64,000 bases of DNA from NCBI GenBank assembly GCA_029946065.1, contig JAQSDU010000020.1:124001-188000 (forward strand), in the 5' to 3' direction. Of this stretch, positions 8,885-60,351 are shown piece by piece. The position numbers and the translations under genes are program-made. Within the stretch, counting starts at the first letter, position 1. Each line of letters opens with the position of its first letter. The notes under the pieces are model-generated. The model ran no database searches and was not told where the DNA came from. It saw only the letters and a program-made list of their open reading frames with translations. Source of the DNA: Flavobacterium sp. GTDB taxonomy: Bacteria; Bacteroidota; Bacteroidia; Flavobacteriales; Flavobacteriaceae.

Positions 8885-8966
8885 CAGCTAATCCCGCTGT
8901 GCGCTCTATCTTTTCTCCGCTAAAGAAGCGGAAGAAAAGGATGCCGCTTCCATCAGGGCTAGGGCA
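8885..8966. repeat. Putative structured interspersed intergenic repeat (flavobacterial 'AATCCCGCT...GGGCTAGGGC' type)
   Basis: cagctaatcccgctgtgcgctctatcttttctccgctaaagaagcggaagaaaaggatgccgcttccatcagggctagggc; central hairpin ctccgct..agcggaag. Confidence 0.5.
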
Positions 8967-54444: not shown

Positions 54445-54515
54445 TGGTCTATGGTGTAATGGTAACACAGCTGTTTTTGGTGCAGCCTTTCTAGGTTCGA
54501 GTCCTAGTAGACCAA
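54445..54515 (+). tRNA. tRNA-Gln (anticodon TTG)
   Basis: Acceptor TGGTCTA/TAGACCA; anticodon arm GCTGT-TTTTGGT-GCAGC; T-loop GGTTCGAGTCC; CCA not encoded. Confidence 0.95.
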
Positions 54516-54517
54516 CG

Positions 54518-54546
54518 AAAAAAGCCTCCTTTTTAGGAGGCTTTTT
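54518..54546 (+). terminator. Terminator downstream of tRNA-Gln
   Basis: aaaaagcctcctttttaggaggcttttt. Confidence 0.92.
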
Positions 54547-55698: not shown

Positions 55699-55706
55699 TA
55701 TATTTG
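55699..55706 (+). promoter_or_regulatory. -7 element for rimP-nusA-infB
   Basis: TATATTTG matches TAnnTTTG. Confidence 0.65.
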
Positions 55707-55735
55707 CACCGTTATTTATTAAAAAACTGAATAAT

Positions 55736-55763
55736 GAGGGAAGCAATGCTTCCCTCTTTTTAT
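55736..55763 (+). terminator. Terminator/attenuator-like hairpin in the rimP-nusA-infB leader
   Basis: GAGGGAAGC-AAT-GCTTCCCTC-TTTTTAT: perfect 9-bp stem, 3-nt loop, U-tract. Confidence 0.8.
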
Positions 55764-55769
55764 AAAAAT

Positions 55770-56234
55770 ATGACATTTAAAGAGAAAGTAGTAAATTTAC
55801 TCGAAGAAGGCCTTGCAGACAAGCCGTCGATTTTCTTAATTGATCTCACAATTACGGATGCTTTCAAGATAATCGTGACTTTAGATGGTGATAACGGAGT
55901 GCAATTGCAGGATTGCATTGATGTAAGCCGCGCTATCGAACACAATATCGACCGCGAGGAGCAGGATTTTTCGTTAGAAGTTGCCTCTGTCGGAGTGGGT
56001 TCACCATTGAAGCTAATCCGCCAGTATAAAAAAAATATCGGTAGAATGCTAATCGTAAAATTAGCCACCGATACCATAGAAGCTGAACTTGCCGATGCCA
56101 ATGATGATTGCATTACGCTCGCTTGGGAAGCTAGAGAACCAAAAAAAGTGGGTAAAGGAAAAGAAACTGTTCAAAAAAGACAGGAAATTCCATATTCAGA
56201 AATAAAAGAAGCAATTGTTACAGTAACATTTTAA
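55770..56234 (+). CDS. rimP: Ribosome maturation factor RimP
   Basis: [61 protein letters not shown]...[15 protein letters not shown]. Confidence 0.92.
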
Positions 56235-56248
56235 TTTAAAGAGTTGGC

Positions 56249-57493
56249 ATGGAAAATTTAGCATTAATCGATTCATTTTCAGAGTTTAAAGACGACAAAC
56301 TTATTGATCGTGTAACGCTTATGGCGATTTTGGAAGATGTGTTCAGAAATGCATTGAAGAAGAAATTCGGTTCAGATGATAATTTTGATATCATTATCAA
56401 TCCTGATAAAGGAGATATGGAAATCTGGAGAAGACGCGTTATCGTTGCTGATGATGATCTTGATTTAGAGAATGAAGAAATTACGCTGACAGAAGCAAGA
56501 AAAATCGAGCCAGATTTTGAAATCGGCGAAGAAGTTTCTGAAGAAGTAAAACTAATCGATTTGGGGAGAAGAGCCATTTTGGCACTTCGTCAGAACCTTA
56601 TTTCAAAAATACACGAACACGATAATACCAATCTTTACAAACAATTTAAAGATTTAATTGGCGAAATTTATACTGCCGAAGTACACCACGTTCGTCCAAG
56701 AGTTGTAATTTTGGTTGATGACGAAGGCAACGAAATCGTGCTTCCTAAAGAAAAACAGATTCCGTCTGACTTTTTCCGTAAAGGAGATAACGTTCGCGGT
56801 ATCATTGAAAGTGTTGAATTGAAAGGCAATAAGCCACAAATCATCATGTCTCGTACATCGGAGAAATTCCTTGAGAAATTGTTCGAACAGGAAATTCCTG
56901 AAGTTTTTGACGGTTTAATTATGGTGAAAAACGTAGTAAGAATTCCAGGCGAAAAAGCAAAAGTAGCTGTAGATTCTTATGACGATAGAATTGATCCTGT
57001 TGGTGCTTGTGTCGGCATGAAGGGTTCACGTATTCATGGCATCGTTCGTGAATTGGGCAACGAAAATATCGATGTAATCAATTATACCACTAACACGCAA
57101 TTGTATATCACAAGAGCACTAAGTCCTGCAAAAGTTTCTTCTATCAAAATCAACGAAGAAACCAAAAGAGCGGAAGTGTTTTTGAAATTAGAAGAAGTAT
57201 CAAAAGCTATCGGAAGAGGTGGGCATAATATTAAATTAGCGGGTCAATTAACCGGCTATGAGCTAGATGTTATTCGCGAAGGTAATGTTGCTGAAGAAGA
57301 AGATGATGTTGAATTGACAGAGTTTTCAGACGAAATCGATGCTTGGGTTATCGAAGAATTCGCAAAAATCGGTTTGGATACAGCAAGAAGCATTCTTAAA
57401 CAAGATGTGAATGATTTGGTCAGAAGAACAGACCTTGAAGAGGAAACCATCCAGGAAGTGATGCGCATCCTTAATGAGGAATTCAACAGCTAA
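56249..57493 (+). CDS. nusA: Transcription termination/antitermination factor NusA
   Basis: LIDSFSEFKDDKLIDRVTLMAILEDVFRNALKKKFG...DPVGACVGMKGSRIHGIVRELGNENIDVI. Confidence 0.98.
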   Translation: MENLALIDSFSEFKDDKLIDRVTLMAILEDVFRNALKKKFGSDDNFDIIINPDKGDMEIWRRRVIVADDDLDLENEEITLTEARKIEPDFEIGEEVSEEVKLIDLGRRAILALRQNLISKIHEHDNTNLYKQFKDLIGEIYTAEVHHVRPRVVILVDDEGNEIVLPKEKQIPSDFFRKGDNVRGIIESVELKGNKPQIIMSRTSEKFLEKLFEQEIPEVFDGLIMVKNVVRIPGEKAKVAVDSYDDRIDPVGACVGMKGSRIHGIVRELGNENIDVINYTTNTQLYITRALSPAKVSSIKINEETKRAEVFLKLEEVSKAIGRGGHNIKLAGQLTGYELDVIREGNVAEEEDDVELTEFSDEIDAWVIEEFAKIGLDTARSILKQDVNDLVRRTDLEEETIQEVMRILNEEFNS

Positions 57494-57540: not shown

Positions 57541-60351
57541 ATGTCTGAAGAGAGAATAATAAGAATAAACAAGGTTTTAAGGGAATTAAATATTTCTTTG
57601 GAAAGGGCTGTGGATTATCTGAAAGATAAGGGCATCGCTATTGATGCCAATCCGAATGCCAAGATTTCTGAGAAGGAATTTAGTATCCTGCAAAACCAAT
57701 TTGCAGGCGACAGGGGCAATAAAGAAGCTTCGAAAGAAGTAGGCGAAGAGAAACGTAAAGAAAAAGAAGCTTTGCGTATCGAGAGGGAAAAAGAGATCGA
57801 AGACAAACGCAAACAAGACGAAGAGCGTTTAAGACAACAGCAGGAAGTGATCAAAGCGAAAGCCATTGTGAGCGCACCAAAAACTGTTGGAACGATTGAC
57901 CTAAATCCAAAAAAGCCAACTGTGTCTGCTCCAGCACCAACTCCAGTAGTTGAAAAAGCACCGGAAGTTGTTGCGAAGCCAGTTGAAAATAGGCCAGAAA
58001 AACCTATTGAGGAAAGACCAGTCGCAGTTGCTATTGAACCCGTTCAGCCAAAAGCGGAAACAAAAAATGTGCCTTCAGGAGATAATGCCGATACTGAAAA
58101 TGAGTCCGTTACCACTCAATATGTTCAGTTGTCAGGAACAACTTTTACTGGACAAACCATCGACTTGTCGCAATTCAACAAGCCTAAAAAGAAAAAAGAA
58201 GAACCGAAAATTACGCCTAATAAACCAGGTGCAACTCCGGGAGCAGGTGCAGGCGCTAACGCAAATGCCAATAAGAATAAAAGAAAAAGAATCATCCCGA
58301 AACCAGGCGCTCCGCGACCAGCAGGAACCGGAACTCCAGGTGCCAATAAAATTGTTCCGAATGCAGGTGGTGCTAATGCCAACAGAAGCGCGAGACCAGG
58401 ATTCGTAAAAGGAAACCGTCCGGCAATTGTGGCAAAAGTGGAGCCTACGGAAGAGGAAGTTAAAAACCAAATCCGTGAAACCCTTGAGAAATTACAAGGA
58501 AAAGGAGGAAAATCAAAAGCAGCCAAATACAGAAGAGACAAAAGAGAAACGCACCGCCAGAAATCTGACGACGAGCAACGTGCTTTTGAAGAAGGCAGTA
58601 AAACCATCAAAGTAACCGAGTTTGTAACCGTTGGCGAAATCGCCATTATGATGGATGTGCCAATTACAAAAGTGATTGGAACTTGTATGTCGCTTGGGAT
58701 CATGGTAACCATGAACCAACGTTTGGATGCAGAAACATTAACTATTGTTGCTGATGAATTTGGTTACGAAGTAGAATTCATCACCACTGAACTAGAAGAT
58801 TCTATTCAGGCCGTTGAAGATAAAGAAGAAGATTTGTTAGATCGTGCGCCAATTGTTACCGTAATGGGACACGTCGATCACGGAAAAACATCGCTTTTGG
58901 ATTATATCCGTAAGGAAAATGTTATCGCTGGAGAATCAGGGGGGATCACACAGCACATTGGTGCCTATGGGGTGACTTTGGATAACGGGCAAAAAATAGC
59001 ATTCCTTGATACACCGGGTCACGAAGCGTTTACCGCGATGCGTGCGCGTGGTGCTCAGGTAACCGATATTGCAATCATTGTCGTGGCGGCGGATGATGAT
59101 ATCATGCCACAAACGAAAGAAGCTATTTCTCATGCTCAGGCGGCGAATGTGCCTATTATCTTCGCTATCAACAAAGTGGACAAGCCGAATGCAAATCCCG
59201 AAAAAATTAAAGAAAGACTCGCCGGAATGAACCTTTTGGTAGAAGACTGGGGTGGAAAAATACAATCCCACGATATTTCTGCAAAAGTAGGAACAGGCGT
59301 AAAAGAATTACTCGAAAAAGTATTGTTGGAAGCGGAAATTCTCGAATTGAGATCCAATCCAAACAAAGCGGCATCAGGAACTGTGGTAGAAGCTTTCCTT
59401 GACAAAGGAAAAGGTTATGTTTCAACAATCCTCGTGCAAAACGGAACTTTACGTGTGGGCGATTATATGCTTGCTGGTAAACACCACGGAAAAATCAAAG
59501 CAATGCATGATGAGCGTGGACATGTTGTTAAAGAAGCTGGGCCGTCAACACCAGTATCGGTTTTAGGCCTTGATGGTGCTGCAACAGCCGGTGATAAATT
59601 CAACGTTTTTGAAGACGAAAGAGAAGCAAAAGCTATTGCGGCAAAACGCACACAATTGATGCGCGAACAATCTGTTCGTACACAACGTCATATTACGCTT
59701 GCGGAAATCGGAAGAAGGATTGCACTTGGACAATTTAAAGAACTCAACATAATCCTTAAAGGTGACGTGGATGGTTCGGTTGAAGCGCTTTCTGATTCGT
59801 TCTCGAAATTATCGACAGACGAAATCCAAATCAATATTATTCATAAAGGTGTTGGTGCGATTACAGAAACTGATGTCATGTTGGCTTCTGCGTCTGACGC
59901 AATTATCATCGGATTTAACGTTCGTCCGGCAGGAAACGCAAGACAATTAGCGGACAAAGAAGAAATCGATATCAGAAATTATTCCATCATCTACGATGCA
60001 ATTGACGATTTGAAAGATGCGATGGAAGGCATGCTTTCTCCGGAAATGAAAGAAGAAATTACCGGAACTGCCGAAATTCGCGAGATATTCAAAATCTCAA
60101 AAGTCGGATCTATTGCAGGTTGTATGGTTATGGACGGAAAAATCTTCAGAAATTCAAGAATACGAATCATCCGCGAAGGGGTTGTGGTTTTCACAGGCGA
60201 ACTAACGGCATTGAAGCGTTTCAAAGACGACGTAAAAGAAGTTGCAAAAGGATATGATTGTGGTATTCAAATCAAGAACTACAACGACATTGAAGAGCGC
60301 GATATCATCGAAGCTTTCCAGGAAGTTGCGGTGAAGAAAAAGTTGAAATAA
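57541..60351 (+). CDS. infB: Translation initiation factor IF-2
   Basis: [43 protein letters not shown]...[17 protein letters not shown]...NKVDKP. Confidence 0.99.

Follow-up and report, generated by a model that had tools for sequence, protein, structure and literature searches.

The window, a stretch of 64,000 nucleotides from a Flavobacterium sp. genome, carries the rimP, nusA and infB genes one after another on the forward strand, and the short leader in front of rimP comprises a -7 box, two hairpins, a T tract and an additional ATG codon (Table 1). The first-pass annotation of this DNA had described a -7 box, a perfect 9-bp stem with a 3-nt loop and a U-tract before the rimP ATG. This description proved exact to the base, with one small correction to the spacing: the ATG lies 13 nt from the end of the stem and 6 nt from the end of the T tract. 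The box, as TATATTTG or TATCTTTG, was found at an equal distance in the Flavobacterium homologues, and the sequence points to a start of transcription at about 55710-55713.

Table 1. Features of the rimP leader and operon, with positions in the window
Feature	Position	Strand	Basis
-7 box TATATTTG of the Bacteroidota type, promoter of the rimP operon	55699-55706	+	read from sequence
A+T-rich upstream hairpin P1 (GUUAUUUA / UGAAUAAU)	55711-55735	+	RNAfold; RNAalifold on 45 distinct Flavobacterium leaders
ATG at the hairpin base, in frame with rimP; possible alternative start or short leader ORF	55734-55736	+	
Terminator-like hairpin GAGGGAAGC-AAT-GCTTCCCTC, perfect 9-bp stem, 3-nt loop	55736-55756	+	sequence, fold, compensatory changes
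T tract TTTTTAT, short and interrupted	55757-55763	+	read from sequence
rimP, ribosome maturation factor, ATG at 55770	55770-56234	+	Pfam PF02576 (RimP_N), E 4.8e-7
nusA, N-terminal domain and KH domains	56249-57493	+	Pfam PF08529, E 4.5e-31; PF13184, E 9.8e-27
infB, translation initiation factor IF-2	57541-60351	+	Pfam PF11987, E 7.1e-44

The 90-nt leader was predicted by RNAfold to fold with -17.7 kcal/mol (z = -2.98), and an equal stability was reached by 1 of 200 shuffled sequences. In the upstream hairpin P1 the changes among the 45 distinct leaders were mostly from A-U to G-U; its covariation was weak and it was found in the genus only, and on these grounds P1 was rejected as an essential part of the element.

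Approximately 1.2 kb upstream of rimP and on the same strand, at 54445-54540 (+), a tRNA gene is closely followed by a terminator-like GCCTCC/GGAGGC hairpin with T5. A universal stress protein gene in the opposite orientation is located between this pair and rimP.

The rimP leader hairpin was the top terminator-like site of the surrounding 14-kb region, and the pattern GAGGG-N9..14-CCCTCTTTT occurred once in the 3.83-Mb genome. The leader sequence is present in a single copy, which led to rejection of a dispersed repeat or mobile palindrome as its origin. For comparison, 766 kb of the genome were sampled by regions and 541 genes were called by a crude ORF-based procedure, 117 of them preceded by a TAnnTTTG box and a scannable leader. 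The leader of rimP was the sole one among these 117 with a terminator-like hairpin between the box and the gene, defined as a stem of 6 bp or more, including 4 or more GC pairs, followed by a T-rich stretch. The hairpin is thus genuine, unusual for its genome and no product of chance.

Strength of the hairpin and of the T tract

The stability of the hairpin was calculated at -14.5 kcal/mol, in comparison to a median of -10.2 kcal/mol for 42 sites in this genome presumed to be 3'-end terminators. The T tract is short by the same standard, with a run of 5 T instead of the typical 6-7 and with 6 T in the first 8 positions instead of the typical 7. The combination of a strong hairpin with a short, interrupted U tract suggests that termination in the rimP leader would be incomplete and sensitive to a factor. 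The short tract by itself is no proof of factor dependence, since about one third of the presumed ordinary 3'-end terminators also have no more than 6 T in the first 8 positions. Moreover, factor-dependent terminators often have weak hairpins, unlike the strong one in the rimP leader. Distal interruptions of the U-tract have been reported for the NusA-dependent terminators of B. subtilis (PMC8060035).

Conservation and covariation of the hairpin

The first-pass annotation had left the conservation of the stem in relatives to be checked. When the check was run, the stem was found to be kept across the genus and far beyond Flavobacteriaceae, with compensatory changes. The genus set consisted of 80 related loci from a species-level genome collection, in 78 of which the whole leader was available; together with the window this gave 79 intact rimP leaders, and all 79 contained the hairpin. 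The tail TTTTTAT was present in 78 of them and took the form TTTTCAT in the remaining one. The outer pairs GAGG/CCTC were nearly invariant, the inner stem occurred in the paired versions GGAC/GTCC, GAAGC/GCTTC and CACGC/GCGTG, and the loop sequence was free to vary. When 151 genomes of the genus were scanned, 135 had a matching place, and the inner stems GGAGC/GCTCC, GGTGA..TCACC, CAGGC/GCCTG and GGCTT/AAGCC could be added to the list; these matches were taken irrespective of their distance from rimP, and some are clearly located elsewhere.

In a set of 41 diverse sequences, two-sided changes were observed in 8 of the 9 stem pairs. The covariation score of 0.402 compares with 0.173 ± 0.018 after shuffling, none of 500 shuffles reaching it, and with 0.100-0.162 for slid registers; as the sequences are related the shuffle count does not constitute a probability, whereas the slid-register control preserves the relatedness. 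The sequence of the element, its place between the promoter and the operon, its conservation and its covariation were all observed directly.

Outside the genus, the hairpin with its T tract preceded rimP in all 18 other Flavobacteriaceae genomes examined. Families f2, f3, f6, f7, f10, f12, f13 and f14 have the same hairpin, which extends over most of the sampled order; in f14 the count refers to the proximal hairpin, and one later scan chose a different, distal one. By our own count, a hairpin with a T tract stood before rimP in 29 of the 30 Bacteroidia loci examined, mostly in the form GAGGGGAC/GTCCCCTC. The exact pattern AGGGGACN3-7GTCCCCTNTTT was detected in 56 of 149 Bacteroidia genomes, and in 47 of these it had the orientation of rimP and preceded the RimP_N match by 37-101 nt. 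The same pattern read backwards, used as a control, was found in none of the 149. In 11 genomes the exact pattern occurred elsewhere, mostly as matches on both strands, like bidirectional terminators.

In some families a different hairpin takes the place of the class form. Family f8 has GGGGAGC/GCTCCCC, and in family f4 (loci L160-L171 and L199-L204) AAGGC-(CTTCG..)-GCCTTTTTTCGTA replaces the GAGGGGAC hairpin upstream of rimP. The f4 T tract together with CGTAAAT could pair with the upstream ATTTACGGAAAA to form an extended stem, which may act differently.

In other classes of the phylum most of the examined rimP leaders retain some hairpin and T tract whose sequence differs, including forms with a C-rich 5' arm; the scan took the best hairpin within 330 nt, so single cases are less certain. 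By this best-hairpin scan several rimP leaders outside Bacteroidia had no hairpin with a T tract. In family f79 (L265, L268, L269 and L271) two GC-rich hairpins with T tracts, GGGGGGC..GCCGCCC and CGTCCGT..GCGGGCG, stand in tandem before rimP, like the tandem arrangement described for Gammaproteobacteria. Within the order, the two related genomes L105 and L106 have the hairpin about 110 nt upstream of rimP, with approximately 90 extra nucleotides between it and the rimP start. The extra stretch is rich in CCGG and in inverted repeats and looks like a small repeat element that inserted at this site.

The distance from the -7 box to the hairpin was 8-31 nt in 91 leaders. The distance from the hairpin to the rimP start was 10-39 nt in most of the order and exceeded 100 nt in two genomes.

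Probable attenuation of the operon and other readings of the hairpin

The rimP-leader was described by Naville and Gautheret in 2010 as the most ubiquitous attenuator, with no antiterminator and with NusA as the best candidate effector (PMC2965389). Both the attenuator and the NusA proposal have thus been published already, and the Bacteroidia leader is not a new kind of element. It shares with the general form (Fig. 2b of PMC2965389) the position in the 5' UTR of rimP-nusA-infB, the G-rich 5' arm, the C-rich 3' arm and the T tract. The published form has no visible antiterminator, and likewise an RNA antiterminator can be discounted in the Flavobacterium leaders, since in none of them does an upstream segment form 6 or more contiguous pairs with the 5' arm of the hairpin. 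The published signature GGGc(...)gCCC differs at the fourth pair from the class-wide GAGGGGAC/GTCCCCTC and from the GAGGGAAGC and GAGGCACGC forms. GGG...CCC is present; at the pair after it the window has A-U and the class form G-C (GGGG/CCCC), and in the GAGGCACGC subgroup only GG is found. We take the lower-case pair of the signature to mean that it is not invariant. In comparison to the general rimP-leader the Bacteroidia leader is minimal, with the hairpin so close behind the -7 box.

Rfam did not recognize the element. For the rimP family RF01770, no match was listed around the leader even when E values up to 10 were allowed, and none was found in this genome; assignment to it was rejected as there was no covariance model match; among 14 control genomes only E. 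coli reached its cut-off. Other Rfam matches in this region at E up to 10 (STnc290 and others) were far under their gathering scores and were dismissed as chance. Elsewhere in the window, at 8886-8964 (-), a Flavo-1 RNA (RF01705) scored 68.9 bits, well over its gathering score; no clear function was found for it in PMC9723704. The same transcriptome paper on F. psychrophilum reports a structured 5' element upstream of rimP, conserved in other Flavobacteriaceae genera and without an Rfam match, which is very probably the hairpin described here. Its main text gives no mechanism and places the conservation within the family. New in this work are the extent of the element across the class, its covariation, the near-fixed sequence of the stem and the very short distance from promoter to hairpin; extent and covariation are described in more detail here than in the main texts of PMC2965389 and PMC9723704.

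In E. coli, terminators t1 and t2 of metY-rimP-nusA-infB are likewise situated immediately ahead of rimP, one example being GGGCTTTAGGCCC with seven T after it, but that leader is long and has a tRNA gene, two terminators and another stem sequence. According to PMC6511841, NusA controls both its own expression and the expression of the operon in E. coli, and its repression of the operon is cited in PMC2965389. In B. subtilis, NusA-stimulated intrinsic termination in the nusA leader, reported to be about 180 nt long (PMC2965389), autoregulates NusA (PMC12288461); the dependence on NusA was measured in that organism, whereas for the window it is drawn by analogy.

Taken with these precedents, the leader element is best explained, with a probability of roughly 0.6, as the Bacteroidia form of the rimP-leader, an intrinsic-type, promoter-proximal terminator attenuating rimP-nusA-infB with NusA as the likely factor. 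RNA polymerase would start near 55711 and synthesize about 45-50 nt, and the GAGGG..CCCTC hairpin would fold during transcription of the short U5-A-U tract. Some polymerases would then release a leader RNA of approximately 50 nt and the remainder would read through into rimP. NusA, the product of the second gene, would stimulate termination in the leader and so limit its own synthesis; the analogy with B. subtilis and E. coli makes such autoregulation of the operon likely. A terminator-like attenuator before rimP-nusA-infB, as the first-pass annotation had proposed, is well supported by position, T tract, covariation, conservation and replacement hairpins, whereas the control by NusA that it had added we only infer, as we do the occurrence of termination and its partial character. 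The near-fixed stem sequence across the class could also be read by another protein.

A fixed leaky terminator, keeping the expression of the operon low and constant without NusA-specific feedback, has a smaller but real chance of being correct. Such a device fits the lack of an antiterminator or sensor domain and the persistence of terminator function while the stem sequence differs between families. However, a free-running damper needs no near-fixed stem sequence class-wide, and the position is conserved ahead of an operon that encodes NusA, at the place where NusA autoregulation has been reported in E. coli and B. subtilis (PMC2965389, PMC12288461). It is unlikely that the hairpin is instead an element of mRNA processing, stability or translation (a nuclease site, 5' protection or control of ribosome access) and no terminator, for all that it lies only 13 nt from the ATG in Flavobacterium and P1 lies near the 5' end. 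A translation element is expected to keep a constant spacing to the start codon. Here the hairpin and the sense T tract near the promoter are constant, the T-rich tract following the stem in essentially all homologues, while the distance to the start codon varies over the range given above, which favours the terminator.

Still less likely is coupling to translation, in which hairpin formation would be prevented by a ribosome starting at the leader ATG (55734) and read-through would depend on the capacity for initiation (RimP, IF2). All 83 Flavobacterium leaders contain ATGAGG, 71 of them in the rimP frame, but changes in hairpin or spacer length break this frame in the other 12, and the ATG is missing from most leaders outside Flavobacteriaceae and a few neighbours, where the hairpin is retained. 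The feedback would also have a positive sign, which is unlikely for this operon. Since 12 of the 83 leaders are out of frame and the hairpin length among the Flavobacterium relatives may be 20, 21 or 22 nt, the conservation of the leader is non-coding; an N-terminal extension of RimP from this ATG, for which the frame is open in the window, was rejected and appears unlikely as a conserved feature. Within Flavobacterium some translational input through the ATG could still contribute. The perfect inverted repeat just past the start site would also suit a DNA operator for a promoter repressor, which we consider very improbable. The T tract invariably follows the dyad on the 3' side of the sense strand, the inner half-site has several versions within the genus, and distant families have other terminator-like hairpins in place of the dyad. 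In addition, the one-sided stem changes on the sense strand comprised 11 G-U and 2 A-C cases (small numbers; the 2 A-C cases belong to rows with arms cut in the wrong register, and some C-to-T changes adjoin the T tract), and this predominance of G-U favours a sense-strand RNA over a DNA operator.

NusA, RimP and IF2 have central roles in transcription termination, 30S maturation and the start of translation, and to our knowledge little is known on how Bacteroidota set their levels. The retention of a terminator in the same position throughout a class whose phylum is remote from E. coli and Bacillus supports an ancient and general attenuation of this operon. The leader also offers a compact natural substrate for studying termination by Bacteroidota RNA polymerase and the role of NusA in it.

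More tentatively, and with a rather low likelihood in our estimate, the leader may represent an ultra-short Bacteroidia attenuator with the near-fixed GAGGGGAC/GTCCCCTC stem, in which termination would take place at or just after promoter escape and the stem would be read by a specific protein, NusA or RimP. If so, the terminated RNAs would be only about 30-50 nt long. In some Bacteroidia genomes the hairpin begins only 8-12 nt after the -7 box.
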